A stretch of 64,000 bases of DNA from Pseudomonas poae (GTDB lineage Bacteria; Pseudomonadota; Gammaproteobacteria; Pseudomonadales; Pseudomonadaceae): contig CP034537.1 in the NCBI GenBank assembly GCA_004000515.1, positions 6,469,501 through 6,533,500 of the forward strand, given 5' to 3'. The translations under genes and the position numbers were made by a program. Shown piece by piece: positions 8,092-52,887 of this stretch; the stretch's first letter is position 1, and each line of letters begins with the position of its first letter. The notes under the pieces are model-generated. The model did not search any database, was not told the DNA's origin, and was given only the letters and a program-made list of their open reading frames with translations.

Positions 8092-8111
8092 TCCAGCGCA
8101 AATTGCTTTTC

Positions 8112-8200
8112 TGTGGGAGCTGGCTTGCCTGCGATGGCGGTGGGTCAGCTTGCACATTAGCGACTGGCAGGCCGCTATCGCAGGCAAGCCAGCTCCCACA
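8112..8200. repeat. inverted REP pair (BIME-like)
   Basis: Two REP units face each other. The 24-bp arm at 8112-8135 is perfectly complementary to 8177-8200, with a 41-bp spacer that carries a second imperfect stem. It sits between convergent genes, the usual place for such pairs in fluorescens-group genomes. Confidence 0.85.
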
Positions 8201-8214
8201 TTTAGAGCGTGTTT

Positions 8215-9147: not shown

Positions 9148-9233
9148 GACGCACAGGTCCATTGATAATTGAGCGGATTATCACCTATCCGAGCACTATT
9201 TATACTGCCCACAGAACCCTGATGCGGATGTAA

Positions 9234-9864
9234 ATGATGACCGAGCGCCTGTTTTTCACCCATGACCACCTGACGGCCGAGTTGGAAGTGCTCAGTTGCA
9301 CAGCCCACGAGGGTCTTTTTGCAGTCGTCTTGCAATCGACGATCTTCCATCCCCAAGGTGGCGGGCAGCCCTTCGACACCGGCTGGCTGGGCGACAGCCA
9401 GGTCGTGCGGGTCACCCAGGAAGCCGACCGCGTGGTGCACTACGTCGACCAACCGGTGGCACCAGGCCCGATCACGGCGCGGGTCGATGAGCCGCGCCGC
9501 ACCCTGCACACACGGCTGCATTCGGCTGGGCACTTGATTGGCAACGCCGGCGAAACCCTGGGGTGGATGCCGATCAAGGCGCACCACTGGCCGGGTGAGG
9601 GCAAGATCACGTTTATTCGCGGTGAAGCGGCGCAAGCGATCGATGCCGAGGCGATCCAGCAGCAAATCAACCAGTGGATCGCTGCCGATCACCCTCGCCA
9701 CATGACCTTGGAAGACGGCACCCGCGAGGTAGGTTTCGGCGAGTTGCCCGCGTATGCGTGTGGCGGTACGCATGTGCAGGCGCTGAGCGAATTGGGCCAG
9801 GTGACGATCCTGGCCCTGTCGGAGAAAAAAAGGCGCACTGTCGGTGCGCTACGAAATCACTTGA
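9234..9864 (+). CDS. alanyl-tRNA editing protein (AlaX type), frame interrupted at the end
   Basis: A free-standing relative of the alanyl-tRNA synthetase editing domain that hydrolyses mischarged Ser- or Gly-tRNA(Ala). Hallmarks are FHPQGGGQPFDTG near residue 40, the zinc-binding HSAGH near residue 95 and CGGTH near residue 175. As read, the last 30 residues are out of frame because of a seven-A run at about 9826-9832. With six A the protein ends EKKGALSVRYEIT at 9864, the normal family end, 9 bp short of the convergent phoD stop. Confidence 0.85.
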
Positions 9865-9873
9865 GCCCGCTCA

Positions 9874-11448: not shown

Positions 11449-11999
11449 ACGCGGCGTTCCCAGTCTTCACGTACCACGGCGAACCCCAACAGGTCTTCGA
11501 ATACCCCGTTCTTGAGAAACGCTTCGCGCATGCAGCCCTCAAAGCGCAGGCCGATTTTCTCCATCACCCGCGCCGACTCCTTGTTACGCCCGAAGCATTG
11601 GCTGCCGATGCGTTGCAGGCCCAACTCGGTGAAGCCGAAGTCCGTCACGGCACTGGCCGCCTCGGCAGCGTAGCCCTGGTTACGGCAGTGCGCTGCCACC
11701 CAGCCACCCAAGTGGCCATAGCGATGCCGAGGGTTGAGCCGCAGGCTGACGATGCCGACCAACTCGCCACTCGCATGCTCATGCATGCCCAGGCTGAGCA
11801 ATTCACCCGCACGATATTTCGCCTCCATCGCATCAATAAAAACCTGTGCGGTTTCCAGCGTGTAGGGCGATGGAATATTCGCCGTGTTGTCGGCGATTTT
11901 CGGCCCGTTGGCGAGGCCGGAAAGTGCCTCGGCCTGGCCCATTTCCAGCGCGCGCAATAGTAGTCGCGCAGTCGATAAATGCGGCAGTGAATGACTCAT
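11445..11999 (-). CDS. GNAT family N-acetyltransferase (RimJ/RimL type)
   Basis: A 184-residue acetyl-CoA-dependent N-acetyltransferase. It starts TARLLLRAL. The acetyl-CoA pocket region is GGWVAAHCRNQGYAAEAASAVTDFGFTELGLQRIGSQCFGRNKESARVMEKIGLRFEGCMREAF, the classic Acetyltransf_3 layout. It is coupled to phoD by a 4-bp overlap. The substrate is unknown. The frame is intact. Confidence 0.88.
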   Translation of the reverse strand: MSHSLPHLSTARLLLRALEMGQAEALSGLANGPKIADNTANIPSPYTLETAQVFIDAMEAKYRAGELLSLGMHEHASGELVGIVSLRLNPRHRYGHLGGWVAAHCRNQGYAAEAASAVTDFGFTELGLQRIGSQCFGRNKESARVMEKIGLRFEGCMREAFLKNGVFEDLLGFAVVREDWERRV

Positions 12000-12125
12000 T
12001 CCCGGGGGCCCTCGATGTAAAGTTTTCGAGAATGTACCGTGGGTGTTTCAATTTCATTACGTCATAAAACTGCAAGGTAAATCTCCTGAAAGACGCGTCC
12101 TAGAGCCCTCAAAACGTCAATTATT

Positions 12126-12154
12126 GTTAACCAATCGGTCATTTTTGGTTGTTA
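12126..12154. promoter_or_regulatory. dyad upstream of the exbD-tonB operon
   Basis: The arms TTAACCAA (12127-12134) and TTGGTTGTTA (12145-12154) form an inverted repeat 36 bp before the exbD start. It is a candidate operator. I see no recognisable Fur box. Confidence 0.3.
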
Positions 12155-12189
12155 GCGTGTCGCCCCTAATTCAACGACGGGGTAGCGGA

Positions 12190-12597
12190 ATGAGAACCTG
12201 GGATGAACCCAAGAAACGCAAGGCACACATCGAACTGATCCCAATGATCGACGTGATGATGTTCCTCCTGGTGTTTTTCGTACTCGTGAGCCTGAACGTG
12301 ATTCCCGCGCTCGGCATGAAGACCCAATTGCCTAGCGCCAGCAGCTCGCAACAACTCAAGCCGCAGAACAAATTCATCCTGACCCTGGGCCTGGAAGGCC
12401 AACTGCAACTGGATGGCAAAGACCTTACGGTCGACGCCCTGGTACCGGCGCTGAAGGCAGCAGAGAAGCCCGATACCAAGTCGACGATCATCGTCAACAG
12501 CGACAAGGGCGTAGAAGTTTCGCGCCTGGTGGAAGTGATGGACACCCTGCGCCTGGGTGGCTTCACCTCCGTGTCCATTGCCACGCGTAAGTCCTGA
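12190..12597 (+). CDS. exbD: ExbD/TolR family biopolymer transport protein
   Basis: 135 residues. One N-terminal membrane helix (IELIPMIDVMMFLLVFFVLVSLNVI) carries the proton-path Asp of the ExbD family (PMIDVM), followed by a periplasmic domain ending VMDTLRLGGFTSVSIATRKS. With ExbB it forms the proton-driven motor energising TonB. It is the first gene of a four-gene operon. The ATG at 12190 places the membrane helix normally; the open frame upstream has no good start. The frame is intact. Confidence 0.9.
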   Translation: MRTWDEPKKRKAHIELIPMIDVMMFLLVFFVLVSLNVIPALGMKTQLPSASSSQQLKPQNKFILTLGLEGQLQLDGKDLTVDALVPALKAAEKPDTKSTIIVNSDKGVEVSRLVEVMDTLRLGGFTSVSIATRKS

Positions 12598-12599
12598 TC

Positions 12600-13328
12600 A
12601 TGTATGTCCTGTTTCGTGCGCGTCGGCTGCTGGGCAGTGTCCCGGCCCTGATCGCCCTGGTGCTGATTGCACTGGGTATCCATTCCCAAACCCTCAAAGT
12701 CGAGCCGGTGTATGACGAGTCGGCGGTCGAGTTGGCGTTGGTCGAACCCGAGCCGGAAGTGATCCCGGAGCCGGTGGTTGAACAAGAGCCGCCACCGCCG
12801 GTGATCGAGGATGAAGAGGCCGAGCCAGCCCCGCCTCCGCCGCCGCCCAAGCCACTGCCAAAACCCAAACCCGAGCCCAAGCCAAAACCTGTGCCCAAGC
12901 CGGTGGTGGCCAAGCCGACACCGACGCCGACACCGCCACCTGTGGCTGCCAAACCGGCACCTGCCGCCGTGGCCCAGACCGCCCCGACACCTGCACCGCC
13001 CGCGCCGCCAAAGGTCGACGGCCAGGCGCTGGAAGGCGGTTACCTCAAGGGTTTGCGCAACGAGTTGGACACCTACAAGCAATACCCCACCGGACGCCAA
13101 GCCTCCCTCGAACGCCCAAGCGGCGAGGTCGTGGTCTGGTTACTGGTAGACCGCCAGGGTCGCGTTCTGGACTCCGGCTTACAAACCCAGGCGTCAAGCA
13201 TGTTGCTCAACCGGGCAGCCACCAACAGCTTGCGTCGTATCAAGCAAGTCAAGCCGTTCCCCGAGCAAGCCTTCGGGGGGCGCAATGAGCAGCGCTTCAC
13301 CGCCACCTTCAACTACAGCGTGCAATAA
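12600..13328 (+). CDS. tonB: energy transducer TonB
   Basis: A 242-residue TonB-family protein. A single N-terminal helix (LLGSVPALIALVLIALGIHS) is followed by a long Pro/Glu/Lys-rich spacer of EPEPE and PKPKP repeats (about residues 50-135) that spans the periplasm. The C-terminal TonB domain contains YPTGRQASLERPSGEVVVWLLVDRQGRVLDSGLQTQASSMLLNRAA. It starts 2 bp after exbD stops. It couples ExbBD energy to the receptor encoded next. Confidence 0.92.
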   Translation: MYVLFRARRLLGSVPALIALVLIALGIHSQTLKVEPVYDESAVELALVEPEPEVIPEPVVEQEPPPPVIEDEEAEPAPPPPPPKPLPKPKPEPKPKPVPKPVVAKPTPTPTPPPVAAKPAPAAVAQTAPTPAPPAPPKVDGQALEGGYLKGLRNELDTYKQYPTGRQASLERPSGEVVVWLLVDRQGRVLDSGLQTQASSMLLNRAATNSLRRIKQVKPFPEQAFGGRNEQRFTATFNYSVQ

Positions 13329-13349
13329 GCACCCGACACCAGGACGACA

Positions 13350-15632
13350 GTGATGAGGTTCACACGGATTCATCTGGCACTCGTTGCCGCAAGCATGGGC
13401 CATGGAATGGTCATGGCAGACACCAGCGACAGCGACGTCGGCACGATTGGGGTTCAGGGCAAGGCCACGGCAGGTGGCGGCTACATGGTGCAAGAAGAAA
13501 GCATCAAGGGCCGCTCCACCGTGACCAAGGAAGCGCTGGATAAACAAACCGCCACCGGTAACGCGATCGACAAGCTCAAGTACACCCCGGGCCTGAACAT
13601 CTCCAGCGAAGACAACACCGGTCTGTCGGGCTTCCGTTTCACCATGCGCGGCCTCAACTCCGACCAAGTGGGCATGTCGGTAGACGGTATGCCGATCAAC
13701 GACTCCGGCAACTACGCGTTGTATTCAAACCTGCTGGGCGACCCGGAAAACATCGACCAGATCTTCGTCACCCAGGGCTCATCCGAAGCCGACGGCCCGC
13801 ACATCGGTTCCAGCGGCGGCAACATCGGTATCGTGACGATCCGCCCCACCAAAGAAACCGGTGCGTTCGTCAAACAGGTGATGGGCAGCAACGCCACCCG
13901 CAAGACCTTTGCGCGCCTGAACACCGGTGAAGTCAACGGCCTGAGCAACTGGCTGTCGGTGTCCCATACCGAAGGTGACATGTGGCGCGGCTCGGGTGCC
14001 GTGCGTGCAGACAAGGTGGAGTGGAACAGCTTCTTCGATGCCGGCAACGGCAACACTGCCAACCTGATCCTCAAGTACCACGAGCAGGACAACAACAGTT
14101 ACAGCCAGTTGACCAAGGCCCAGTACCAGCAGAATGGCCGCAAGTACGACCCCTACCCAGCCACCCCGACCGTGGGCAGCAACGGCAAGGTCAACAGCTA
14201 CTACGCCCTGGCGCAGAACCCGTTCCAAACCTTTACCGGCGTACTCAACACCCAGTTCAAGCTGGCCGATAACCTGGCCCTCTCCGTCATCCCGTATTAC
14301 TACTGGGGCAACGGCAGCGGCGTAGGCTCCTCCAGCTACGCACTCAACCGCGGCTCGAACGCGGGCGGTGTATTCGACCTGAGCAACCTGCCGACCGCCG
14401 CGCAGTACAACGCCGACGGTTCTTCCACGACCGGCGTGTACTACCGCCCTTCCCGTACCCAGACCTGGCGCCCGGGTATCACCACCAAGCTGAACTGGGA
14501 CCTGGACGAACACAGCCTGCAATTCGGCTACTGGTATGAGCGCGCACGCCAAAGCCAGACCCAACCGTTCATTGCGCTCAAGAACAGCGGCAAGCCTAGC
14601 GACACCTGGCCGGATGGCAACGCCGTGGTCGACGCCAACGGCAACACCGTACAAGGTCGCGACCGCTTCACCGTGACCCCGGCGCAAAAAGTCTGGGCCC
14701 AGGACACTTGGTACATCAACCCGGACTGGACCCTGGTGGCGGGCCTCGCCTACATGAACGTCGAGCGTGACGGCACCAACCACGGCAGCCTCACCGAGCA
14801 AGCCGAAAAACGTAACCAGACCTACAACAAGCTGCTGCCCAACGTCGGCCTCAAGTACCAACTGGATGAGCGTGACCAGTTGTTCTACAGCCTGTCGCGC
14901 AACATGCGTATCCCGCAGAACTACGTGCTGTACGACAAGGGCCTGGACTCGATCAACTCCAAGCCCGAAACCAGCTGGAACCACGAGTTGGGCTGGCGCT
15001 TCACCGGTGACGACATGACCGTCGCCGCAACCTTGTTCTACATGCAGTTCAAGGATCGCCAGGTCTCGTCAAAGGATATCAACGGCGACTTCGCCGACAT
15101 CAACGCCGGCTCCGTCAACAACAGCGGTCTGGAACTGGAGTGGAGCGGCCTGCTGCCCAATCACTTCAACTACTACACCTCCTACACCTACACCAAGGCC
15201 GAGCAGCAAGACGACCTGACCGTCTACAACGCAGGAAAAGCGATCCTGTTGCCGACCAGTGGCAAGCAGTTCGCCAACGTGCCGAAAAACATGCTGGCGG
15301 CCAACATCGGGTATGACGACGGGCGCTTCTACGGCACCTTCGGCGGCAAGTACACCAGCAAGCTCTACGGCGACCTGACCAACGACGAAGCGATCTCCGG
15401 GCGCACCGTCTTCAACGCCGGCGCCGGTATCTACCTGCCGGTGGACAAGAAAGTCGTGAAAGACGCGACCCTGCGCCTGAACGTCGACAACCTGTTCGAC
15501 AAGAAGTACCTGGATGGCGTGTACACCACCAAGACCAACTCGGCCACCTACAGCGGTTTCCGCGACGGCGACCCGGCGTACATCGTTGGCCTGGAACGCA
15601 CCGTGACGGTTTCCCTGGAAGCCAATTTCTAA
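13350..15632 (+). CDS. TonB-dependent outer-membrane receptor
   Basis: A 760-residue receptor. Its N-terminal signal peptide ends near MVMADT. The plug domain (about 45-170) has STVTKEALDKQTATGNAIDKLKYTPGLN and FRFTMRGLNSDQVGMSVDGMPIND. A 22-strand barrel ends in the usual aromatic residue (TVSLEANF), with the late motif RLNVDNLFDKKYLDG. It lacks an N-terminal signalling domain, so it is not a FecA-type transducer. The ligand (siderophore, haem, sugar or other) cannot be inferred. It lies between tonB and exbB, implying a dedicated energising system. The frame is intact. Confidence 0.92.
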   Translation: MMRFTRIHLALVAASMGHGMVMADTSDSDVGTIGVQGKATAGGGYMVQEESIKGRSTVTKEALDKQTATGNAIDKLKYTPGLNISSEDNTGLSGFRFTMRGLNSDQVGMSVDGMPINDSGNYALYSNLLGDPENIDQIFVTQGSSEADGPHIGSSGGNIGIVTIRPTKETGAFVKQVMGSNATRKTFARLNTGEVNGLSNWLSVSHTEGDMWRGSGAVRADKVEWNSFFDAGNGNTANLILKYHEQDNNSYSQLTKAQYQQNGRKYDPYPATPTVGSNGKVNSYYALAQNPFQTFTGVLNTQFKLADNLALSVIPYYYWGNGSGVGSSSYALNRGSNAGGVFDLSNLPTAAQYNADGSSTTGVYYRPSRTQTWRPGITTKLNWDLDEHSLQFGYWYERARQSQTQPFIALKNSGKPSDTWPDGNAVVDANGNTVQGRDRFTVTPAQKVWAQDTWYINPDWTLVAGLAYMNVERDGTNHGSLTEQAEKRNQTYNKLLPNVGLKYQLDERDQLFYSLSRNMRIPQNYVLYDKGLDSINSKPETSWNHELGWRFTGDDMTVAATLFYMQFKDRQVSSKDINGDFADINAGSVNNSGLELEWSGLLPNHFNYYTSYTYTKAEQQDDLTVYNAGKAILLPTSGKQFANVPKNMLAANIGYDDGRFYGTFGGKYTSKLYGDLTNDEAISGRTVFNAGAGIYLPVDKKVVKDATLRLNVDNLFDKKYLDGVYTTKTNSATYSGFRDGDPAYIVGLERTVTVSLEANF

Positions 15633-23963: not shown

Positions 23964-26330
23964 ATGCCCCGTCAAAGCGACCTGCGTTACACCTTCGAAC
24001 CGCTACGGGGCGATCCCTTCGAAGTGGTCTCATTTACCCTTCAGGAAGGCCTATCCCAACCGTTCAAACTGGAACTCGAACTCGTCAGCCATCACCAGGC
24101 CATCGACTTCTACCGCATGCTCGACCTGGCGGCAGTGTTCACGATCTGGCGCGATGACACCCCGGTTCGCTACGTCCACGGTTTGGTCAGCCTGTTCCAG
24201 CAAGGTGACACCGGCTTTCGCCGCACTCGCTACACCGCCATAGTTGAACCGACTCTGAAACGTTTCGACCTGCGCTCCAACTGGCGCATCTTCCAGGGCC
24301 AGACCGTGCCCGACATCATCACCAGCATGCTGGCCGAGCAAAAGCTGACTGACATCCGCAGCGAGATCTGCTTCGAGCATCAGCCTCGCGAATACTGCGT
24401 ACAGGCCGGCGAAACCGACCTCGACTTCATCGCCCGCCTCGCCGCCGAGGAAGGCCTGCTCTACACCTTCGAACACCGCGTCGACGGCCACACCCTCATC
24501 CTCACCGACCGCGTCGGCGGCCTCGGCACCATCGGCACCCACACCGATTGCCCGGTGATCTACCAGCCCATGGGTGGCGGCGACTCCAAGGAACCGGCGC
24601 TGAACCGCTTCCACTACACCGAACAAGTGCGCACCGCCGTGCAGGTGCAGCGCGACTACACCTTCACCCATCCGCGCTATAGCCAGCAGCACACTGCCAC
24701 TGGCGATCAGGACCTGAACAACCAGCACAAAGACTACGAACGCTACGACTACCCAGGCCGTTACAAGCGCGATATCGCCGGCAAGCCCTTCACCAAAACC
24801 CGCCTGGCCGCGCTGCGCAACGACGCCAAGTTGGCGCACCTGGAAGGCGACGATGAGCGCCTGCAACCCGGGTTGGCGTTCGACCTCAACGAGCATCCGC
24901 GTGAAGACTTCAATGACCGCTGGCGAACCATCGCCATCAGACACGAAGGCAAGCAGCACACCAGCTTGCAGGAAGAGTCGTTCGGCAGTGGCCTTGGTAC
25001 GTCTTACTCGTTGAAAGCCAGCGCCATCCGCTGGACCTCGGATTGGAAAGCGCCACTGCGTGACAAACCGTGCATCGACGGCCCGCAAATGGCCACGGTG
25101 GTCGGGCCTCCCGGCGAGGAGATTTATTGCGATGAATGGGGCCGGGTCAAGGTGCAGTTTCCGTGGGACCGTTCGGACAAAAACAACGACCAGAGTTCGT
25201 GCTGGATCCGTGTCGCTCAAGGCTGGGCAGGCGCGACGTGGGGGGCCATGGCCGTGCCGCGCGTGAATCAGGAACTGATCATCAGCTTTTTGGATGGCGA
25301 CCCTGACCAGCCTATCGCCACGGGCCGCACCTACCGCCAGACCAATCTGCCGCCGTATGAGCTGCCCAAGCACAAGACACGGATGACCATCAAAAGCCGC
25401 ACTCATAAGGGTGATGGCTTCAATGAACTGCGTTTTGAGGATGAGTTGGGCCACCAGGAGGTGTTTATCCATGCCGAGAAAGACAAGAACGTTCATATCA
25501 AGAACAACAACACTCACTACGTGGGTAACGACCGAAGCGAGAAGGTCGAACACGACGAGCAGGTAGAAATCGGCCGCAACCGCAGCAAGCGAGTAGGTAA
25601 CGATGAGCACATTGCTATTGTGCAGGATCAGCATCTGCAACTGGGCCGTGACCGAATTGAGACGCTGGGACGTAATCATCGCACCAGCATCGGCGGGGAC
25701 CGCGTCGAGGAAATTGCCAACAACCGGCATGATAAAATTGCCGCTGACCATAATATCCAGATTGGAGGCAGTGCCGAGCAATCAGTCCAAAACCGCTACT
25801 CCCTGTGCGCAGGGCAACGCATTGAGCAAAAAACGACAGTGTTCGATGTTTCATCGGGCGAACGCATTGTCCTGAGGGCCCCCGGTGGCAGCATCACGAT
25901 TGATAGCGATGGCATTACCCTTGATGGGCTGACCATCAAGATCAAAGGCCCCGTCACCACAGATGCAATCGGTATGGGCAACCCGCTCGGCAGCCCACCA
26001 TCCCCCGCCGCACCACTTGGAGCATTCCTGGGACGTTACACGTTGCTGAAGAACGATCAACGTGCTTTCGCGGGCTATCGATATCGCATCACTGATGGCG
26101 CCACCCTACTCAGCGAAGGCCTCACCTGCCCCCAAGGGGCAACTGACTGGACTGTTACCGAGGCATCCAGACCCGTGCAGGCCCACAAGGCAATCATGCG
26201 CGACGATCAGCGAATCACCGAAACCTGGCAGCCCTATCTGATGGCTTTCGATGATGAGACCCCACCTGTAGAGACCAAGGTCATTTTTCCTGATGACTTT
26301 CTTGCCCATTACAGCGAAGGCCTCGACTGA
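23964..26330 (+). CDS. vgrG: type VI secretion system tip protein VgrG
   Basis: 788 residues, intact. The N-terminal gp27/gp5-like region (about 1-480) has REYCVQAGETDLDFIARLAAEEGLLYTFEH and the OB-fold block ATVVGPPGEEIYCDEWGRVKVQFPWDR...SCWIRVAQGWAGATWGAMAVPRVNQE. A beta-helix spike (about 490-670) is built of short repeats (VGNDRSEKVEHDEQVEIGRN). The end (about 690-788, GRYTLLKNDQRAFAGYRYRI) resembles the transthyretin-like adaptor that docks effectors. Its stop overlaps the effector start by one base. Confidence 0.95.
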   Translation: MPRQSDLRYTFEPLRGDPFEVVSFTLQEGLSQPFKLELELVSHHQAIDFYRMLDLAAVFTIWRDDTPVRYVHGLVSLFQQGDTGFRRTRYTAIVEPTLKRFDLRSNWRIFQGQTVPDIITSMLAEQKLTDIRSEICFEHQPREYCVQAGETDLDFIARLAAEEGLLYTFEHRVDGHTLILTDRVGGLGTIGTHTDCPVIYQPMGGGDSKEPALNRFHYTEQVRTAVQVQRDYTFTHPRYSQQHTATGDQDLNNQHKDYERYDYPGRYKRDIAGKPFTKTRLAALRNDAKLAHLEGDDERLQPGLAFDLNEHPREDFNDRWRTIAIRHEGKQHTSLQEESFGSGLGTSYSLKASAIRWTSDWKAPLRDKPCIDGPQMATVVGPPGEEIYCDEWGRVKVQFPWDRSDKNNDQSSCWIRVAQGWAGATWGAMAVPRVNQELIISFLDGDPDQPIATGRTYRQTNLPPYELPKHKTRMTIKSRTHKGDGFNELRFEDELGHQEVFIHAEKDKNVHIKNNNTHYVGNDRSEKVEHDEQVEIGRNRSKRVGNDEHIAIVQDQHLQLGRDRIETLGRNHRTSIGGDRVEEIANNRHDKIAADHNIQIGGSAEQSVQNRYSLCAGQRIEQKTTVFDVSSGERIVLRAPGGSITIDSDGITLDGLTIKIKGPVTTDAIGMGNPLGSPPSPAAPLGAFLGRYTLLKNDQRAFAGYRYRITDGATLLSEGLTCPQGATDWTVTEASRPVQAHKAIMRDDQRITETWQPYLMAFDDETPPVETKVIFPDDFLAHYSEGLD

Positions 26331-30335: not shown

Positions 30336-30614
30336 ATGAGTCGTCAGCGTTACCCCGAAGAATTCAAGATCGAAGCGGTCAAGCAAGTGACCGAGAAAGG
30401 CAAACCTGTCGCCGATGTCGCCCAGCGCCTGGGCATGTCCGTGCACAGTCTTTACGCCTGGATCAAGGTCTACAGCAAGCCCCAAGAGCAGCGTCAGCAA
30501 GACGACGATCAGCAGGCCGAACTGCGCAAGCTACGCGCTGAACTCAAGCGCGTGACGGAAGAGCGAGACATCTTAAAAAAGGCCGCCGCGTACTTTGCCA
30601 AGGAGTGCGGCTGA
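30336..30614 (+). CDS. IS3 family transposase OrfA
   Basis: 92 residues: an HTH_Tnp_1 helix-turn-helix (QRYPEEFKIEAVKQVTEKGKPVADVAQRLGMSVHSLYAWIKVY) followed by a leucine-zipper-like coiled coil (ELRKLRAELKRVTEERDILKKAAAYFAKECG). A slippery AAAAAAG at 30575-30581 within the last codons allows programmed -1 frameshifting into orfB to make the active OrfAB transposase. RBS GGAGG precedes it. Confidence 0.93.
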   Translation: MSRQRYPEEFKIEAVKQVTEKGKPVADVAQRLGMSVHSLYAWIKVYSKPQEQRQQDDDQQAELRKLRAELKRVTEERDILKKAAAYFAKECG

Positions 30615-31486
30615 AGTACGCCTTCATCAAGAAGCACTCGACTGATTACCCGGTGCGGCGCCTTTGCCAAACCCTCAAGGTGCACCCCAGCGGCTATTAC
30701 GCCTGGCTGGCCGAGCCTCAATCTGCCCGAGCAAAAGAAGATCAACGTCTGCTTGGCTTGATCAAACACGCTTGGCTGGAAAGCGGAGGTGTATACGGCT
30801 ACCGCAAAATTCACGATGACCTGCGTGAGCTGGGAGAGGAATGCGGCCGAAATCGAGTCAGGCGCTTGATGCAGGCGGAGGGGCTGCGTTCTCAAACGGG
30901 CTATCGGCGGCGTCCAGGGTTCTATGGTGGAAAACCAACAGTGGCCTCGCCCAACCACCTCGCGCGGCAGTTCAAGGTAAGTGAGCCGAACAAGGTCTGG
31001 GTGACAGATATCACTTACATCCGCACCTATGAAGGGTGGCTCTACCTCGCGGTAGTGCTGGATCTGTTCTCACGCCAAGTAATTGGTTGGTCAATGAAGC
31101 CAAGGATGTGCAGCGACCTGGCTATCGACGCGATGTTGATGGCTGTTTGGCGACGCAAGCCTCAGCAGCAAGTTATGATTCACTCAGATCAAGGCAGTCA
31201 GTTCAGTAGCTCGGATTGGAAAAGCTTTTTGAAGGCCAACAATGTAATCAGCAGCATGAGCCGGCGGGGAAACTGCCACGACAATGCTGTAGCCGAGAGC
31301 TTTTTCCAGCTTTTGAAGCGAGAGCGAATCCGACGAAAGATCTACACAACCCGTGAAGAAGCCCGAAGTGATATTTTCGATTACATCGAGATGTTCTATA
31401 ACCCTAAACGCCGACACAGCAGTGCTATGCAGCTGTCTCCAGTAGAGTATGAGAAACGCTATTTCCTGAGCTTGGAGAGTGTCTAG
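30605..31486 (+). CDS. IS3 family transposase OrfB (DDE integrase domain)
   Basis: 293 residues overlapping orfA by 10 bp in the -1 frame. An HTH_21 region (GVYGYRKIHDDLREL..CGRNRVRRLMQAEGL) is followed by the rve DDE core: VTDITYI (first Asp), IHSDQGSQFSS (second Asp) and NAVAESFFQLLKRE (Glu), ending PKRRHSSAMQLSPVEYE. All catalytic residues are intact and the frame is unbroken, so this copy may still be functional. Confidence 0.93.
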   Translation: MRLKYAFIKKHSTDYPVRRLCQTLKVHPSGYYAWLAEPQSARAKEDQRLLGLIKHAWLESGGVYGYRKIHDDLRELGEECGRNRVRRLMQAEGLRSQTGYRRRPGFYGGKPTVASPNHLARQFKVSEPNKVWVTDITYIRTYEGWLYLAVVLDLFSRQVIGWSMKPRMCSDLAIDAMLMAVWRRKPQQQVMIHSDQGSQFSSSDWKSFLKANNVISSMSRRGNCHDNAVAESFFQLLKRERIRRKIYTTREEARSDIFDYIEMFYNPKRRHSSAMQLSPVEYEKRYFLSLESV

Positions 31487-31504: not shown

Positions 31505-32502
31505 GACATCTCGAGACCGGAGAGGCAATAGGGAGGCCTCTTCAATGGATATGGCGGGCTCTTCTCCAGCGCGCCAAACAGCTGCCTTCATAGATTTCTC
31601 CTCTCAATTTATTTTTATTTTCGCTACCAAAAGCATGCGACTGACCAGAAATATAAACAACTGTCTAGACATTCGTCAATCTCGATGTGCAACATTCTTG
31701 CTGCGCGTCGCGATAGGGGCAAGATCAGGAAACTGGACGCACGCGAGCCATCACTTAGCCCGCGGGACGTGCGCACAGTGAAGCGGGGGAACTACCCCGC
31801 AGCCAGGCGAATCTCTTTCGGAATCGCGAGATCGCGATCTTTCGTACAAAAGCGGAAGTTTTCGCCAAAATCCGGAGTCCAGATGGCGTTGTCGAGATCA
31901 TTGCCGCGGGCCCCGATGAGGAGAATTTGCGTGGAGGGGCCGGTATCACTTCCAGAACTCGCGAGGTGGCGTCATACCGCAGCAAGCGCCCACAGTGGCA
32001 CTCCAGGAATCCAGAACAGAATGCTGTCGGTGTTCACTGTGTTTACCAAGGAATACATCATTGAGGTGCCGATGATCCGGCATAGGAGGAAGCCGGCACC
32101 TTGGGCTGCGGGAGCACCGCGTGATACAGGCTGCACGCCGACAACCTACCGGTGTCGGGTGAGACGATACGGATATGGAGTTCCGCTCACGTCGGTCCTT
32201 CCCCGATTCACCTCAAACCTCTCATACTTAAGAGCACCGCCGAGGCGACGAACCGCTCGATCGTGCAGGATAGAATTGCCGCCTGTCATCAGCCCGACGT
32301 TTTCTTTCTAGGAAGCTAGGGCCGTTTAGATACACCTGCCGACTAAGCCATTTTGGCAAGGCAGCCATGGCAGGCCTGTGATGTTTGAATGCTTTACCGT
32401 GCGATTCTACAGCTGGCTTGCCAGATATCTATGCTTCGACAAAATTATCGACTGAGTGCATCACTTCATAGACGTAAACCAACATACAGCTACGGGAAAT
32501 TT
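31505..32502. other. cargo segment with no intact gene, possible minus-strand remnant
   Basis: No ORF with a convincing family signature. On the minus strand, 32,000-31,790 can be read across frames as GRLLRYDATSRVLEVI... and ...ILLIGARGNDLDNAIWTPDFGENFRFC...IPKEIRLAAG, which looks like the end of a former enzyme gene I cannot name. The rest appears non-coding. Confidence 0.35.
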
Positions 32503-33200
32503 ATGGATCACGAAGAGGCCTACTGCAGCGTTGACCAAGATGAGCTTGATAGATGTGGCCTGGCCGCATTGATCGCGGCTCAGGATAGGCGGCTGGCATT
32601 CACCAACGTCGATTTCAGTGGGCAAGATCTATCGCGTCTAGATTTGCGTGGTGCGCGCTTCGAGCGATGCCTTTTTGCCAACAGCGACCTCACTGCCGCG
32701 AAGCTGGATGCCACCCAGTGGCTCAACTGCCGTGGAGCTCAGGTAATTTTCGCCTCGGCTACGTTGACCGATGCAAAATTCCAACGCTGCGACCTCAACA
32801 ACAGCAAATGGCAGCGTAGCAAGCTGGCACATGTCAGCTTCGAGGCGTGTAAGCTCACCGGTGCCAACTTTATCGATGTGTCCTCGCTGGGGCTTCAATT
32901 CAACGATTGCGTACTCCGCAGCGCCTGCTTGCCGGGCATTTCGTTTTATAAGAGCGAGTTAAACAACCTGGACTTCGCTGAGGCTGACCTAAGCCACTGC
33001 GATTTTCGCAAGGCCGTATTTGTCAATGGAGGCAGTCTTTCACTGGCACGGGTTAATGACGCCCGCTTCGATCAGGCCGATCTGCGGGAAGCCAGCCTTG
33101 ATGGGCTTCGCTTAGTCGATGCTAAACTGTTCAAGGGGCGATCATTTCCCGCACGCAAGCATCCATGCTGCTCGGCGGGTTGGGGTTGACAGTGCTCTAA
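32503..33200 (+). CDS. pentapeptide-repeat protein, frame interrupted near its end
   Basis: About 232 residues made largely of A(D/N)LxX-type five-residue repeats: FTNVDFSGQDLSRLDLRGARFERCLFANSDLTAAKLDATQ, and later LNNLDFAEADLSHCDFRKAVFV and ARFDQADLREASLDGLRLVDAKLFKG. This predicts a right-handed quadrilateral beta-helix. A missing G near 33137 shifts the last residues; restored, it ends AIISRTQASMLLGGLGLTVL at 33200, a usual C-terminus of single-domain family members. Some relatives (Qnr, McbG) protect DNA gyrase, but nothing here shows the target. Start ATG 32503. Confidence 0.8.
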
Positions 33201-43737: not shown

Positions 43738-43949
43738 CGCCATGGACCTCCACTGCGCTCCACGCGCGCGCCCAAAACGAAGCGCCTGCTCTGATCTCCT
43801 GAACTACCCGAGACTCAACTGGCGCAATATTGCCTCCCAGCGACAACAAGCCGGTCATTATCGGATCCACCTTGTTTGCTGTCTCGCGCGGTCTCCCCGG
43901 ACATGCTGGTGCTCATTCAATGAACACCACGCCAACTCCGGGAGGCTGC

Positions 43950-45973
43950 ATGCGCGTATATCTGTGCGAGAAGCCTTCGCAAGGCAAAGACATTGCACGT
44001 GTGATGGGTGCGAAACAACGCGGAGCTGGCTGCTACAACGGACCAGGAATTGTCGTGACCTGGTGCATCGGTCACCTGATCGAAGCCGCACCACCGGAAG
44101 CCTACGGTGAGCAGTACAAGCGCTGGTCCATTGAACAGCTTCCCATTATTCCCGAGCGCTGGCGCAGCGAGGTCAAGGCCTCCACTGCTGCGCAATTCAA
44201 GGTCGTCAAACAGTTGCTCGGCCAGGCCACCGAGCTGGTGATTGCCACCGATGCCGATCGCGAAGGCGAGATGATCGCTCGCGAGATGATCGAGCTGTGC
44301 GGCTACCGTGGGTCCATTCAACGGCTGTGGCTGTCGGCACTGAATGATGCCTCCATTCGCAAGGCACTGGACGCGCTCAAGCCTTCAAATGAGACCCTGC
44401 CGCTGTATTACTCGGCACTCGCCCGCTCTCGCGCCGATTGGTTGATCGGCATGAACCTCAGCCGGTTGTTCACTCTGCTTGGCCGCCAAGCTGGCTACCA
44501 GGGCGTCCTCTCAGTCGGTCGTGTGCAGACGCCCACGCTGCGTCTTGTGGTCGACCGTGACCGCGAGATCGCCCGGTTCGTATCTGTTCCGTTTTGGTCC
44601 GTCGAATTGCAGCTATCGCACGCCAGCAATTCTTTCGCCGCGAACTGGATTCCGCCCGATGCCACCACCGATGCTGCAGGTCGGTGCCTGGACCAACGAA
44701 CTGCCCAGCAGGCAGCAGGCCGGATCGGCAGCACTCGCGAGGCGCAGGTATTGTCCGTTGAAACCGAGCGAGTTCGTGAAGCCGCGCCTCTCCCGTTCGA
44801 CCTCGGCACGCTGCAGGAGGTCTGCTCGCGCCAGTTTGGTCTTGACGTTCAGGAGACACTGGACATCGCGCAATCGCTGTACGAGACGTACAAGGCGACC
44901 ACCTACCCCCGTTCGGATTCAGGCTACCTGCCGGAGAGCATGTTGGCCGAAGTGCCGACAGTGCTCGACGCCATGCTTGCCAGCGATCCCGGCCTGCACC
45001 CATTGTTCGACCAACTCGACCGCACCCAACGCTCACGCGCCTGGAACGATGCGAAAGTCACTGCTCACCATGGCATCATTCCCACGCTGGAACCGACCAA
45101 CCTTTCTGCCATGTCGGAGAAGCAGCGGGCCGTTTATGGGCTCATCCGTTCGCATTACCTGGCGCAATTTCTACCTCACCATGAATTCGACAGAACAGTC
45201 GCCACGTTGTCAGCCGGCGGCCAGACACTGCAGGCGACGGGTAAGCAGGTTGCCGTCCTGGGATGGCAACGGGCGCTAATCAACAGCGGGCCGGACATAC
45301 CCGACGGTGCGGACGATGAGCCCGCCCAACGCAGCCAGATCCTGCCGCCGCTATCCGAGGGTACACATTGCCAAGTCAGCTCTGTCGATCTGAAAGCGCT
45401 GAAAACACTGCCGCCCAAGCCGTTCACGCAGGGTGAGTTGATCAAAGCCATGAAGGGTGTCGCCAAACTGGTGACAGACCCACGCCTGAAGCAAAAGTTG
45501 AAGGAAACCACGGGCATCGGCACCGAGGCCACCCGCGCAAACATCATCAACGGCCTGCTGGGCCGAAGCTACCTGATCAAAAAGGTCGATCCGTCCGCGC
45601 CTCCGAGGCGGCTTTCACCCTGATCGACGCTGTTCCCGCGGCCATCGCCGACCCGGGCACGACCGCTATCTGGGAACAGGCACTGGACATGATTGAATCC
45701 GGGCAGTTGACCCTGGACATCTTCATTGCGAAACAGTCGGCCTGGATCACTCAACTGATCCAGCAGTACAGCGGAACCACCCTGTCTATACGGATCCCGG
45801 AAGGCCCTGTCTGCCCTCTGTGCGGCGGAGCTACACGCCAGCGAACCGGCAAAACCGGTCCCTTTTGGTCGTGCAACCGTTATCCCGACTGTAAAGGCAC
45901 CGTAGCGATCGAATCGTCCGGTGGCAAGCGAGCCGCTCCGCGCAAGCGGCGGACCGCTCCCAGGGCTTCCTGA
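43950..45973 (+). CDS. topB: DNA topoisomerase III of the ICE, frame interrupted
   Basis: About 675 residues when restored. The Toprim domain has LCEKPSQGKDIARVMG and IATDADREGEMIAREMIE. The type IA core has GVLSVGRVQTPTLRLV and the active-site YKATTYPRSDSGYLPESM. A missing A near 45581 cuts off the end; restored it reads LIKKGRSVRASEAAFTLIDAVPAAIADPGTTAIWEQAL and includes a zinc ribbon CPLCGG...CNRYPDC. The start ATG 43950 has GGAGG; the longer start at 43830 is unlikely. It decatenates ICE DNA. Confidence 0.92.
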
Positions 45974-46518
45974 CGCCTGCCAGACACGTCCTGCCCCAGC
46001 CGCGTTTTCCAGCGGTTGCCAGGCATGGCCTCGCTACCCGCGGGGCGTCCCAAGCATGTCCCCGCCTTCTGCAATGGCATGTACCTCCCCTGCAATTCGT
46101 GTAGCCGGGAGGATGAAGGTGCTTTGCTGCCCGGCCGGATACACGGTCTGCTGATCGGCACTCTCTACGTCCGGCCCGAAGGGTCTCCTGGCGCCTTGCC
46201 CGCGAGATGCCAGGAGACCCTTCGGGGACGACGGTGTTCGCCCCGGTACCCACCGGTGAAAAAAAAGGGTTCCTTTTGTGTACGGATGTACGCCGAAAAA
46301 TTCCGGCCCCAACCACGAAACAGGTCGGGTGCGATCTGCTCCAGCGACAGGCTTTGACGACGGCCACGTCCCTGCGACAGCCACAGGTGGTTTCCCTGTC
46401 CCCCGCTGGAGGCGTACTGCCTCCAGCGCCTTGTTCCTCTCCGCACCTTGAACGCCGTCTGCCCCGTGGGTCACTCGGCCCCGGCGTCTTCGCGTCAACC
46501 AGAAAAGGAGATGACCCA
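45974..46518. other. non-coding region after topB with leader-like end
   Basis: No plus-strand gene. It contains the hairpin at 46175-46226. Near the right end, AAGGAG is followed by ATGACCGCTTATACCTGATAA, an ICE-like start that meets a stop after five codons exactly where the left inverted repeat begins. An ICE gene may have been interrupted here. Confidence 0.45.
46175..46226. repeat. perfect 18-bp inverted repeat
   Basis: CCCGAAGGGTCTCCTGGC (46175-46192) is exactly complementary to 46209-46226, with a 16-nt loop and no T-run. It is not a simple terminator; possible roles are an RNA structure or a nicking/recombination site. Confidence 0.75.
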
Positions 46519-46554
46519 TGACCGCTTATACCTGATAAGTAGGCGTTGTGGGAT
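46519..46554. repeat. left inverted repeat bracketing the Gabija-like genes
   Basis: A 36-bp sequence inversely repeated at 51464-51499 with 31 matches; the five differences are all transitions. The inner end is GGCGTTGTGGGAT. Confidence 0.75.
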
Positions 46555-46816
46555 ACCAACATGGGCTTCGCGCTCAGAAGGAGTGAGTTGTGCGGACAGG
46601 GCGAGCACAGCCGTCGGCTGCGCTCCAAGCGCAGCCGAAATGGTTGTGCCCTGTGGGCGCCGGTCTATGGTCATCCGTTGAAGGTGGAAACGTAGATGGT
46701 CAGCGAGGTTTTCTCCCAGTATGCTCATTTTTCTGAGCTCTCGTTTTCAATGCTAAGGGCCTAGTCACGACAACAAAATTCGCCGTCGACTAACAAGGCT
46801 GCCGCACGGAGGCACT

Positions 46817-49217
46817 ATGGCTACGCAAGGGTTTTCTGTTCCGTCCCCCCACGTCAATTCAACCGCCAGTCCCACACCAAGCGCGACCGCGGTACCATCC
46901 AACAAAGCCGTTGTACCTCCCAGCACCGCACCGATTCGACTAGCTTGCGTCGAGGCTTCCAACTTCCGCCGACTCGCAAAAACCCGTCTCGAGCTTGATG
47001 AGACCACCACAATTCTGGTTGGCGCCAACAACAGCGGCAAAACCTCCCTTCTCACTGTCCTTCGTAACTTTCTGGGCGAGTCGCCTGGCATTCGCGCCTT
47101 CGACATCAGTCTCTCGCAGTGGGCGAAGTTGCGCGAATTGGGCCAACTCTGGGAGGCGCTCGAAGACGACCCAACAACGGACTCTAGCGATGCCGAGAAA
47201 TGGCAGGAACAGTATCGACAGCTCCAGGCTTGCATGCCATTCATCGACCTTTGGTTCGATGCAAAGGAAGGTGCGTACAACCACGTTGCTCCCTTCATCA
47301 CTTCACTGAAGTGGTCGGGTGGCGCGGTTGGAGTAAGGGTTCGGCTCGAACCCGCAGCAGATGCCAACGAGCTTCGCAAGCTGGCTTGGCGCTACCGCGA
47401 GGCACGCTCTCCCGTACGAGACCTTCCAAAGGATGGTCACGCCTGGCCGATGGACTTAATTGACTACTGGCTCAGACACTCAACGGACCTGCGTCGTATC
47501 GCTGCTTATCGCCTGGATCCTTTGAAGGGTCCTCTATCAGACAATAAACGCCGCGACTTGCAGGAGTTGCCGCCAAACCCGCAACCTGTCGAGTTGCAAT
47601 TCTTACGAAAGCTCATTCGAGTGGACTTCGTCCCAGCTCAACGAGGACTTGGCACCGAGGAGGATGAGGTACGATCCGAGTCCGCAAACACCCGCCCTGG
47701 CTTATTCTCCAGCCAACTATTGAAATTCGCTCGACAGCACCTGAATGTTGCGCCATCCGGGCACGGACATAGAGAAGACTTGGTGAAGGCTATCGCAAAT
47801 GCGCAAGCCGACCTCGACAAATCGATTTACAAGGCGCTCAAACCAGCGATGGAAGATGTAGAGATTTTGGGGTATCCAGGCCTACATGATCCGCAACAGT
47901 TTCACTTTCGTACCAGAATTCAGACAGCCGATCTCCTTGCCCATAGCACGGCCGTTCAGTACAGCCTGGACGAAACTTCCGTCGACGAGTCCCTTCCTGA
48001 GCACTCTATCGGCCTTGGCTATCAAAACTTGCAATCGCTGAGCTTCATGCTCGTGTCTTTTCGTACCGCACGCCTCACCCCTCCTCAAGGCACCCCGGCA
48101 GCAGTTCATCTTGTGATGATTGAGGAGCCCGAGGCCCATTTACACGTTCAGGTTCAACGCAACTTCTCATCAAACGCTCACGACCTCATTCGTCCAAAGG
48201 AAGCGGTACATAGCAACCTCCGTAGCCAGTTGCTGATCAGCACGCACTCCAGCCATATGGCCCATGGGGACAGCTTTACCCGCCTGAGATATGTGAAGCG
48301 GGTAGCAGGACTGGTGCTGGTACAAAACCCAGCACCGAGGTAGTCAATCTTGGAGATGCCTTTGGTGAAGACACTCAAACCAGGACATTCGCCGAGCGTT
48401 ACTTTCAGGTCCAACACACAGACCTTCTTTTTGCTGATGCGGCCATTTTCGTAGAGGGCACTGCTGAGCGGATGCTGGTACCGCTTTTTATTGAACGAGA
48501 CTTCCCCAAACTTGCCAAGAAATACGTGTCCTTTCTTGACATTGGAGGCAGTCACGCACACCGCCTGAGACCATTGGTGGAAAGGTTGGGGATACCAGCT
48601 ATCGTTATCACCGACTTGGACCCCGTGGTGCCAACCAAGAATGCAAAGGGCCGCATAGTGCGAGCGGCGGTGCACATTGCAGGGCAAGCAGAACTTGAAT
48701 GTGGGAACGACACATTGAGTTCCTGGCACCCGAAGCTGACCAATTTCCAAGCGTACGGTAAACCCACCCCAGCCGACCTGGAATGGACCGCCGACTCGGG
48801 CGCCAAAGTACGATTCGCTTGGCAGCTTCCCATTGCAGCCGTAAGCGAACAATGGCCCAGCTCGTTTGAGGATTCCCTCGTTCTCTCCAACACCGATTGG
48901 TTCAAAGCGTTAGATAAAGAGACGGATCCTGTCACAGGCAAAAAGAGGTTCATCGCGGAACACTGGCGAAAGTGATTGGTATTGTACTCGACAACCCTGA
49001 CCATACCGATCTGCTCAAGGAACTCCATACGATGCTGCGCGGGAACTTCAGCAAGGGTGACTTTGCAGCAACCTTGTTCGAACGACTGAACGCCGGTCAA
49101 GATTTGCAATGTCCCGCCTACATCAATGACGCACTAACTTGGCTAGGCAGCCAGCTAAACGTCACGGCAGGAGAGACCCTTGAGCTCAGAACTGCAATCA
49201 CTGGGAAACGAGCGTGA
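46817..49217 (+). CDS. gajA: OLD family ATP-dependent nuclease (GajA-like), two frame breaks
   Basis: About 800 residues when restored, longer than the ~580 of GajA, with an unusual Thr/Pro/Ser-rich N-terminus (~38 residues). ABC-type ATPase: FRRLAKTRLELDETTTILVGANNSGKTSLL (Walker A) and the late block LVMIEEPEAHLHVQVQ (Walker B) with LISTHSSHM. The Toprim nuclease domain has AIFVEGTAERMLVPLFIE (Glu) and VITDLDP (Asp). Breaks are a lost A near 48330 and a lost G near 48958. RBS GGAGG before ATG 46817. It overlaps the helicase gene, the class 2 OLD tandem of Gabija systems. Confidence 0.85.
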
Positions 49218-51136
49218 TGCTCATATCGTAGAAGACATCTGCGGCTACATCACTGCGGTCCCTCCCCGCAGCTTCTTCCTCTTTGCTGGCGCGGGTTCGG
49301 GGAAAACTCGAACGTTGGTTGAAGTCTTGCGCAGAATTACCGGCGTGGTTCAGCACGAAGCAGGAAGCCAATATGCGCAGCAACTTCGCTCTCGGGGCCA
49401 GTCTGTTCGTGTCATTACCTACACCAAAAACGCAACAGCAGTTGTCACTAGTCGATTAGGTGAGAACTATCTGACGGCGGTTTCAACCATTCACTCTTTC
49501 TGCTGGGAACTCATCAAAGGCTTCGACGAAGACATCAAAGATGCGTTGCTGGCACGCTGTGCCGAGAAACTCGAAGAGGCCAAGGCCTATGCAGCTGGCA
49601 AGGTAAGGGGAGAGTCGGACACCGACCGGAGGAAGTACGCCGAAATTGAGACGCAAGCTGATGAAATCCGCGGCACCAATGCGTTCATCTACCATCCGGA
49701 CCGCAACACCTACGGACCAGGTGCGTTGTCACACGCAGAGGTTTTGGAAGCGACCGCGTGGCTAATTCGTGAGCGCCCAACGCTACAGCGCATTCTGGAG
49801 GATAGGCACCCTCTGATTCTCATAGATGAGTCACAAGACACGATGAAGAAAGTGCTGGACGCACTGTTCGAGCTCACACAGAACCGCCCCAGTCAGATTA
49901 CGCTCGGACTATTGGGCGATCATCGACAGCGCATCTATCCTGATGGTCACGACGACCTCCCCCTCACATGTACCCGAGGGCTGGGCCCGCCCCGCACTGC
50001 AGATGAACCATCGTAGTCAGCAGCGCATCGTTGACCTCATCAACAAGATTTGGGATGCAGACATTGAAGGTCGAACTCAGCCCAAAACCGGCGTTCCCCA
50101 ACATTCACGTACGGAGAAGAACGGCGGTACCGTTCGTATCTTTATCGGCGATACCAAAGTCAGTACCGCAGAGAAAATCCGAAAGGAAGCGGAGTGCGCA
50201 CTGGTAATGGCTGCACAATCATCCTACGCGGCCTGGAGAGATGACGCGCGCGGATACAAAACGCTCGCGCTTGAGCACAAGCTGGCTGCCAAGCGAGGCG
50301 CCTTCTTCGAGGCATATTACGCAATGGATTTGCTGGACAAGGATGCCGCGACGCCCAAGAGCAACGGTGAGCGGACGGGGCCGTCGATGGTTAGACCCCT
50401 CCTCGGCCCGATGCTTGAGCTAGCCGAGTGCTTACAACCGGATGGGTCGGTAAACGAATTTTCCACTATGGAGGTTCTACGTCGTAATAGTGCACTTGCA
50501 AACTTGCCACTGACCAATGCCGAGCGTCAGTCTGTGCTGGGTAACATTCATGCCGCAGTGACGAAGTTCGCCGCTGCCACCTCCAAACCTGACGCGACTG
50601 TTCGGCACGTTTTGGAACCGATCCTTGAGGCAGAGCTTTTTGAAGCAGATTTCCGCCTGGTACAAGCATACGAGGATGCTTCGCCACCTCCGCCCGATCC
50701 GAAACCTAGGGCCAAGGAAGCCAAAGAGGACCGACGCAAGCGCGGATGGCACGCGCTCTTCAATACACCCTGGCAACAGATTGCTCGATATCGTGCGTAC
50801 CTTGGCGGAGAAACGGAACTCGCAACGCACCAGGTCGTCAAGGGATCTGAGTTCAAGCACGTCTTGGTTGTCATGGATGATGAAGAAGCCGGCGGCACGC
50901 TCTTCTCCTATGACAAGCTCTTCGGTGCCGAACGCTTGAGCCCGGCTGACCTGGAGAATGTTAGCGAAGGCAATGAGACCGCTATTGACCGAACCTTACG
51001 ACTGCTCTACGTCACTTGCAGTCGAGCGGAGGAAAGCCTCGCTTTGGTTCTTTGGGCTAAGGACCCCAATGCAGCACTTGTTGCAATCAAGCGCAGCGAA
51101 TGGTTTACCACGGATGAGGTGACTGCTTTGAGTTAG
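49180..51136 (+). CDS. gajB: UvrD/PcrA-like helicase (GajB-like), frame interrupted
   Basis: About 652 residues when restored, from TTG 49180 behind AGGAG, overlapping the nuclease gene by 38 bp. SF1 motifs in order: FFLFAGAGSGKTRTL (I), VRVITYTKNATAVV (Ia), LILIDESQDTMKK (II), GLLGDHRQRIYPDG (III), NHRSQQRIVDLIN (IV), HQVVKGSEFKHVLVVMDDEE (V) and LLYVTCSRAEESLALVLW (VI). An extra C near 49962 splits it; restored it reads GHDDLPSHVPEGWARPALQ. In Gabija the helicase senses or processes DNA for the GajA nuclease. No GajB gene neighbour beyond this pair. Confidence 0.87.
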
Positions 51137-51463
51137 TCTCTGACCGGATATTTCGGCGACCGAACGGAATGTGCCAACGTTGGCCATCGCTGCAGATCAC
51201 TCATCTGGTCTCATGGAACACCTGACTAGTCACCATCCTGCACTCCACTGGTCTAAGCACGACAATGCTTTCAAGCTGGGGAGTAGTACGGTAGGTAGCA
51301 CTCCGGAAGAGACACGCCAGCCTTATCAGGACTTGGCCCCGAAACCTGTTTTGAGTGGTCCACTGTTTTGCGGGGACAAAAACTTTCTCAAGTCATATGG
51401 CTGCTGATGATGAATGTGCGTATTGGTCAGTCAAGCATTCAGAACAGACGAGCGTCATTACAG

Positions 51464-51499
51464 ATCCCACAACGTCTGCTTATCAGGCACAAACGGTCA
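51464..51499. repeat. right inverted repeat bracketing the Gabija-like genes
   Basis: The inverse partner of 46519-46554. Its outer end directly abuts the broken edge of an IS5-type transposase reading frame. Confidence 0.75.
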
Positions 51500-51749
51500 C
51501 TCCCACGTTCAGTACCTTCATCGAAGAAACCGAAACACTGCTGCACGACATACATGCGCATACCCCAATTGCAGGGCGCCCGCGCTTGTCTGTAGTGTCG
51601 TTATAGAACGGAGCCACTTGCGCTTCCAGTTGTGCCCAGGACAGCAGCTGTTCAAAATCAGCCAGGAAGCGATCTCGGCGGGTCTGCTTTTTCTTGCCGG
51701 TGTATTCGAGTTCGGAGAAGGTCTTCTGCACGCGCGTAACAAGGCTCAC
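51500..51749 (-). pseudogene. IS5-family transposase, N-terminal fragment
   Basis: Minus strand from 51749: MSLVTRVQKTFSELEYTGKKKQTRRDRFLADFEQLLSWAQLEAQVAPFYNDTTDKRGRPAIG, then in a shifted frame MRMYVVQQCFGFFDEGTE. This is the start of an IS5-group transposase. Homology ends at about base 51,500, the edge of the inverted repeat, so the element was cut by whatever formed that junction. No catalytic DDE residues remain. Confidence 0.8.
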
Positions 51750-52335
51750 GGAGAGGGGGCTGGTTGAAGATGCTCAGTGTGCCAAAGGTGGGGCGGCTGG
51801 TTATTTTTGCAGCGTCTCCCTAACTATGTATTCGCCGGTGGGGGAAAACCTTCGGAGGCTTTTTTCTTTGCCGGCGCACCGCGCAGTAGCAGGTCATTCC
51901 GATTGCGCGAAGGGCATTGCCTCCGCTCGGCGTATATCCACCGAATGCGAGCCGCAGATGAAGCCATAAACTCAGTAATGAATCCCCCTTCGGGTCGGCG
52001 TAAGCTGCAGCGACTGACGAAAATAGGGCTTCGACTGAATCCCTATTTTCCGTCGCCTGTATCCCATCACCATGCCACGCTGCAGCCATGTTCCGCTGAC
52101 GTTGTCAGCAACATGCCCAGGTGGTCACGATCTTCAAGACCACGGCGCGGTTCCGTCCGCGCGACCGATCCAGTTCGCACCCGGCATCCCAGCGCGAACG
52201 CCCATCGAGTCATCGATGGTGATGCCAATCTAGTTGTACCGGATCTCAGGATCCATCAACCCGCGCGGGGTTACACACCTCCCGTCCGGGTCGGTGTGTC
52301 TCCGCACTCTTGTCCTTCAAGTCTGGAGATTCACC
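51750..52335. other. leader region upstream of DUF3577 gene, no gene seen
   Basis: It holds a strong hairpin at 52016-52054 and, just before the gene, a stem ACACACC/GGTGTGT of the kind found in front of several ICE genes. A long plus-strand frame through here is open only by chance and enters the DUF3577 gene because of a frame break. Confidence 0.5.
52016..52054. repeat. hairpin in the DUF3577 leader
   Basis: GACGAAAATAGGG pairs with CCCTATTTTCCGTC (one bulged C) around a 12-nt loop. Without a clean T-run, it may be an attenuator or an old element end. Confidence 0.6.
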
Positions 52336-52887
52336 ATGACCACTTCATCCGAAAAAACCTTTTTGATCTTCACATCACCGGCCTCGGTTATCTCAATCGC
52401 GTTCGCGAAGTGAAGCCAAAGAAAGGTGATCCGTTCCTGGCCTGCGATATCGCTGCACTCAATGGTCCGAGTGACGACGTCTCGTACGTGCGTTTTGATA
52501 CGCGCGTTTCGGGCTCGGAAGCACAACACCTGGTTCGTCGCTGCATCAAGGCCGTCGAGGCGGAGAAGAAAGTGATGATCGGGTTCCGACTCAGCGACCT
52601 GTGGGCTGATACGTTCACCTACACCAAAGGTAAACGTGCAGGCGAACAGGGCGTGAGCCTCAAGGCCCGTCTGCTGCTCATCAGTTGGATCAAGGTCGAC
52701 AGTGCTTTTGGTTTACAAGGCCGAGCCGAAATCGACCAAGGCCGATGAAAGCGAATCGCAAGCCCCAGCGGCTTCCGAAACGCCTGTCAGCCAGGAAGCA
52801 CCCGCTTCGGAAACCTCCGAGCCTGTTGCAGAACCTGTCGACGAAGCCACCGATGCACAAACACCGGCACTGGCCGAGTCGTTCTGA
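52336..52887 (+). CDS. DUF3577 (STY4534) family ICE protein, two frame breaks
   Basis: About 183 residues when restored; ATG 52336 behind GGAG. Family core: FFDLHITGLGYLNRVREVKPKKGDPFLACDIAALNGPSDDVSYVRFDTRVSGSEAQHLVRRCIKAVEAEKKVMIGFRLSDLWADTFTYTKGKRAGEQGVSLKARLLLISWIKVDS. A missing T near 52363 and a second shift near 52704 break it; the tail VYKAEPKSTKADESE and a low-complexity Ala/Glu/Pro end follow in the next frame. Implicated by family name in ICE replication; mechanism unknown. Confidence 0.82.

Follow-up and report, generated by a model that had tools for sequence, protein, structure and literature searches.

Gabija systems pair an OLD-type nuclease, GajA, with a UvrD-like helicase, GajB. 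In Bacillus cereus, GajA is described as a tetramer with GajB docked onto it, and defense is lost or weakened by mutations at the interfaces between GajA subunits or between GajA and GajB (PMC10781630). The Gabija system of Pseudomonas aeruginosa PA14, which is carried by the PAPI-1 island, is described as restricting phages at DNA ends while sparing DNA on which RecBCD has acted, and a recB- derivative of PAO1 was reported not to be viable under high Gabija expression (PMC12407980). Here, we analyzed a 64,000-nucleotide stretch of Pseudomonas poae (contig CP034537.1, positions 6,469,501 to 6,533,500; the window) from a 7.5-Mb genome assembled into two contigs. Among full-length single RecA chains, the RecA of this genome came closest to 8s7g and 8s70 of P. 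aeruginosa, which by itself makes the genus Pseudomonas likely. Its forward strand encodes, at 46817-51136, an OLD-type ATPase/Toprim nuclease followed in tandem by a UvrD-like helicase. This locus very likely encodes a GajA-GajB (Gabija) pair, predicted to defend the host and the integrative and conjugative element (ICE) that carries it by cutting DNA ends unoccupied by RecBCD.

In the deposited assembly, gajA has to be read in three frames and gajB in two. We used the closest named relative among those compared, Pseudomonas viridiflava ICMP 2848, as a reference, in which each gene is open in one frame, with open reading frames (ORFs) of 789 amino acids (GajA) and 674 amino acids (GajB) from the first listed starts. 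The reference GajA aligned to 46793-49178 of the window and GajB to 49177-51133, with 93 to 97% amino acid identity (tblastn). Together with the PADLOC matches, these alignments confirmed the coordinates and the Gabija-like tandem order of nuclease and helicase that the original prediction, made from the sequence alone, had proposed. A GajA or GajB model was the best PADLOC match for all five window pieces searched, with scores from 500 down to 46 bits, and the Pfam domains found across the pieces were AAA_15, OLD-like_TOPRIM, and UvrD-helicase. The intact P. viridiflava proteins bore out the assignment to Gabija: GajA scored 809 bits to PDLC00093 (736 positions) and 773 bits to PDLC00095 (752 positions), against 124 for AriA and then 76 for Old as the best listed non-Gabija models, and GajB scored 732 bits to its GajB model, against 69 for RTasHel. 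The GajA fit spanned residues 40 to 785, with the variable N-terminal tail lying outside the models, and the GajB models PDLC00111 and PDLC00143 (625 and 632 positions) fitted nearly end to end.

The catalytic signatures pointed the same way. The Toprim acids E547, E551, D600, and D602 were invariant in 62 GajA sequences, an alignment that leaves out the distant GajA clades, and they aligned to those of the Burkholderia pseudomallei OLD chain 6nk8 in a significant profile alignment (E = 8.9e-13). K747 of the helical domain was aligned within a weak stretch (7.7 bits), and S683 and E685 were assigned by spacing alone. In GajB, the Walker A motif and the DESQD box were invariant in 58 sequences. 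Of two structural alignments of the long GajA, the first was topped by class 1 OLD; the second was led by GajA chains, with that of B. cereus VD045 at its head, but tied with a MukB head and class 1 OLD. Structure and PDB sequence comparison thus place GajA among the OLD/GajA proteins and do not separate the two kinds. GajB showed a general UvrD fold, with the solved GajB further down its list.

We regard a non-Gabija OLD system, such as PARIS AriA, a stand-alone OLD, or a retron effector, as very improbable. AriA falls far below GajA in score, as given above, so that the best match is not to a non-Gabija OLD clade, and the gene adjoining gajA is a helicase. A UvrD-like GajB adjoined GajA in all 11 same-genus loci selected by a GajA match, these loci covering 11 of the 25 other GajA-matching genomes of the genus. 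We found no sign of an obligatory third gene: within 6 kb, a single gene family was shared at all, and it recurred in no more than 2 of the 14 loci compared (blastp, E <= 1e-8, one ORF set chosen per locus), reverse transcriptase and AriB not being searched by name.

By its published description, the PA14 system is likewise a gajA-gajB operon carried by a conjugative island of Pseudomonas, with a GajA of ATPase and Toprim domains and a GajB with a DESQ box (PMC12407980). In PAPI-1-type islands, however, Gabija is described as most abundant in the TraG-helicase hotspot (PMC12629846), whereas the present pair lies between topB and DUF3577. With the Gabija of B. cereus VD045 (PMC10781630; 8sm3, 8jqb), our locus shares gene order, domains, and Toprim acids. 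It also shares the Toprim acids and a downstream, often overlapping UvrD-like helicase gene with the class 2 OLD nucleases described from B. pseudomallei and Xanthomonas campestris, but those are 594 to 595 amino acids long and have about 40 fewer residues from the DxD motif to the helical-domain lysine (PMC6755086).

Judging by family, the pair most likely functions as PA14 Gabija does. The long-form class 2 OLD nuclease, with its ATPase and Toprim domains, and the UvrD-like helicase are encoded in tandem, and by analogy with B. cereus their products would form a joint GajA-GajB complex. GajA would then nick and degrade linear phage ends free of RecBCD. The pair may move as a cassette into the slot between topB and DUF3577, at junctions that are visible in the alignments described below. 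Read as deposited, the sequence would yield no full-length proteins, which is likely an assembly artifact.

The original prediction gave the nuclease about 800 residues, in good agreement with the 789 of the intact relative, and suggested a distinct Gabija subtype. The GajA of B. cereus VD045 has 578 amino acids and its GajB about 494, compared with 789 (in the relative) and 651 to 674 for the long pair; identity in structural alignments was low, at 11 to 19%. The excess in GajA, about 210 residues, lies at four places: about 39 in the variable tail, about 110 before Walker B, about 20 in the middle, and about 43 after the Toprim DxD, these figures being arithmetic on aligned ranges. Only part of the extra sequence therefore lies between the ATPase halves, where it had been placed. 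A Ser/Thr/Pro-rich N-terminal tail is real in the P. viridiflava protein (46% over the first 39 residues), but its length is not conserved, ranging from 0 to 80 residues with a median of 35 in the 62 sequences. Among the 120 matches listed, the GajB relatives were mostly of 650 to 651 amino acids; for this reason, gajB probably starts at a TTG overlapping the gajA stop.

As a novelty, the subtype did not stand. The long GajA clade is already within the described Gabija range, because the 736- and 752-position PADLOC models fit it nearly whole, as the 625- and 632-position models do GajB, and the clade is large and also occurs on plasmids. A different matter is whether it is functionally distinct, with the residues before Walker B and after the DxD conferring another trigger or target. 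The 210 extra residues speak for this, as do the many residues that are invariant from Walker A to Walker B (e.g., W129, W146, W166, G168, and R174) and the weak sequence similarity to solved GajA, with none detected to solved GajB. On the other hand, the long GajA falls under existing Gabija models and retains the core Toprim acids, and we consider such a distinction improbable. The fuller version, in which the enlarged pre-Walker B region, the residues between the Toprim and helical domains, and the larger GajB would build an assembly and trigger of their own, in a cassette spread across Pseudomonas ICEs, megaplasmids, and burkholderias, seems to us just as doubtful. Our literature search, mostly at surface level, met no functional study of the long-GajA clade.

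In tblastn against P. viridiflava, the frame of gajA changes at about 48.31 kb and again at about 48.94 kb, and that of gajB at about 49.96 kb. Over 46672-51131, the DNA was 94.9% identical to that of P. viridiflava. All 7 gaps in this alignment are of a single base: one coincides with each of the three frame changes, three more precede gajA, and the last falls near 49.17 kb, where gajA ends. We take assembly error to be a likely cause, and likelier than decay, because topB (one break), DUF3577 (two), and TraD of the same ICE and the chromosomal recB, recC, and hsdR are split too, and because the gajA and gajB pieces contain no in-frame stops and show low ratios of nonsynonymous to synonymous substitution (dN/dS) against P. 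viridiflava, 0.09 over 769 codons of GajA and 0.21 over 634 codons of GajB. Similar breaks were also present in a chromosomal fimbrial usher gene and in the DUF3577 gene of a second element. Ten 20-kb stretches of the genome held 41 candidate frame overlaps, compared with 21 in ten stretches of G100, a complete genome of the same genus, and the mean kept-ORF length was 300 versus 368 amino acids. When 15 chromosomal ORF pairs were checked for a split family, 5 were confirmed (the usher, recC at two junctions, recB, and hsdR). Some points temper this: the remaining 10 pairs share no family, so that some candidate overlaps mark no break; the control is thin, as it consists of one genome; and recent decay could leave low dN/dS as well.

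The pair might instead be real, recently broken pseudogenes on a decaying ICE. There are three frame changes in 4.3 kb in addition to the breaks in topB, DUF3577, and TraD, and breaks are more frequent around gajA and gajB than on average in the genome. However, the breaks reach chromosomal genes and the second element, the sampled ORFs are shorter than those of G100, and every gap is of a single base in pieces free of stops and with low dN/dS, which makes this reading unlikely. Programmed frameshifting in gajA and gajB was rejected because the P. viridiflava and Variovorax relatives are open in one frame and because the ICE and chromosomal genes break alike. In the stretch 2400001-2420000 of the chromosome, recC occupies three frames and recB two (positions 8002-15147), and read literally, the host would be without RecBCD. 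A coupled loss of RecBCD and Gabija was therefore considered; since hsdR, the usher, and ICE genes are likewise broken, it was judged less likely than assembly error, which is the more likely explanation here as well. It would be a mistake to count the frame breaks of this assembly, those of recB and recC included, as gene loss.

The carrier is a PFGI-1-class ICE. From the gene set tested (PFGI-1 parB, PFL_4669, PilL2, TIGR03759, PFL_4695, and TraD), five NCBIfam models scored above their cut-offs, and TraD was split, with both tested pieces below cut-off. These models and the flank matches (Table 1) upheld the placement of the pair on an ICE between topB and DUF3577. As for the claim that it interrupts the conserved ICE backbone, the pair does lie between backbone stretches, but in a cargo slot, with no backbone gene broken. 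Two ICE relatives (L083 and L084) aligned up to 46520 and resumed at 52073, with 89.7 to 95.2% identity over the bounding stretches, and three more distant ones (L080 to L082) stopped at 46400-46438 and resumed at 52074, within 120 bases of the same junctions. L083 and L084 hold other DNA between these junctions, and therefore the pair replaces other cargo. The slot ORFs of L083 include an insertion sequence (IS) transposase of the IS4 type, and the single slot ORF tested in L084 had no match. A PADLOC search of ten proteins, six slot ORFs of L080 to L084 and four neighbors of the pair in P. viridiflava and Variovorax (L004), gave no match except a Variovorax HNH nuclease. The locus clearly shows Gabija carried as cargo in the topB-DUF3577 slot of a PFGI-1-class ICE. 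This slot was not met in a survey of hotspots in P. aeruginosa islands published in 2025; the main text of that survey contains neither "topoisomerase" nor "DUF3577" (PMC12629846). As a defense hotspot, the slot was rejected: DUF3577 stretches were fetched from 20 places in the genus, topB was found as well in 10 of them, at spacings of 0.8 to 6.6 kb, and none of these 10 showed a Gabija match. A second DUF3577 gene, in two frames, lies at 6088090-6088475 of the chromosome contig, about 0.43 Mb from that of the window, and hints at another ICE of this type.

Table 1. Coordinates of the gajA-gajB pieces and their ICE surroundings in the window
Feature	Position	Strand	Basis
gajA piece 1: N-terminal tail and ABC ATPase (Walker A, Walker B)	46817..48307	+	PADLOC GajA PDLC00093, 500 bits; Pfam AAA_15; 96% to P. 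viridiflava
gajA piece 2, second frame: Toprim, VEGTAER and TDLDP motifs	48310..48945	+	PDLC00093, 152.6 bits for 48472-48972; Pfam OLD-like_TOPRIM
gajA piece 3, third frame: helical part at the C terminus, SKGDFA lysine	48939..49178	+	PDLC00095, 46.5 bits for 48972-49214; weak motif alignment
gajB piece 1: GAGSGKT (Walker A), DESQD box	49180..49962	+	PADLOC GajB PDLC00111, 332.8 bits for 49180-50013; Pfam UvrD-helicase
gajB piece 2, other frame: remainder of helicase	49961..51136	+	PDLC00111, 389.5 bits for 49943-51133; tblastn against P. viridiflava
Cargo slot of variable content, flanked by ICE backbone	46521..52072	.	Alignment junctions of ICE relatives
topB (left ICE flank), in two frames with the break near 45.58 kb	43941..45970	+	
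DUF3577 gene, right ICE flank, two frame changes	52294..52884	+	

Relatives of the pair are widespread. GajA matches at E <= 1e-30 were found in 26 of 298 genomes of the genus, its own included, and in a protein search with GajA, 5798 of the 7998 candidates scored passed E <= 1e-5, 120 of these being listed. Among plasmids, 101 of 72,556 records had a match, including five Pseudomonas plasmids of 417 to 589 kb with 85% identity and a helicase annotated alongside; a near DNA search of plasmids gave no match to the locus. There was one weak match place in E. coli and one unannotated phage record at 37%. Two genomes of the genus, G270 (C59, 34544 and 41961) and G078 (C1, 1455257 and 1463539), carry a different GajA, of 35 to 40% identity, about 7 to 8 kb beyond DUF3577, which is Gabija at another place of related ICEs. 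In P. viridiflava (L002), a 1214-amino-acid ORF at 11448-15092 lies directly 3' of the pair, with no Pfam or PADLOC match at E <= 0.001. In the copy of Paraburkholderia ultramafica (L003, 6687-11170), the match to gajA begins only near residue 350, and an ORF resembling the IS3-type transposase of the window lies immediately ahead of the copy; this gajA therefore looks truncated. That transposase (rve, HTH_21) lies at 30605-31486 of the window. Also in the window, a pentapeptide-repeat protein at 32389-33189 is weakly Qnr-like and was not called a resistance gene because it scored 63 bits against a cut-off of 240, and a VgrG-like protein at 23964-26330 (Phage_GPD, Gp5 C-terminal domain) probably belongs to a type VI secretion locus.
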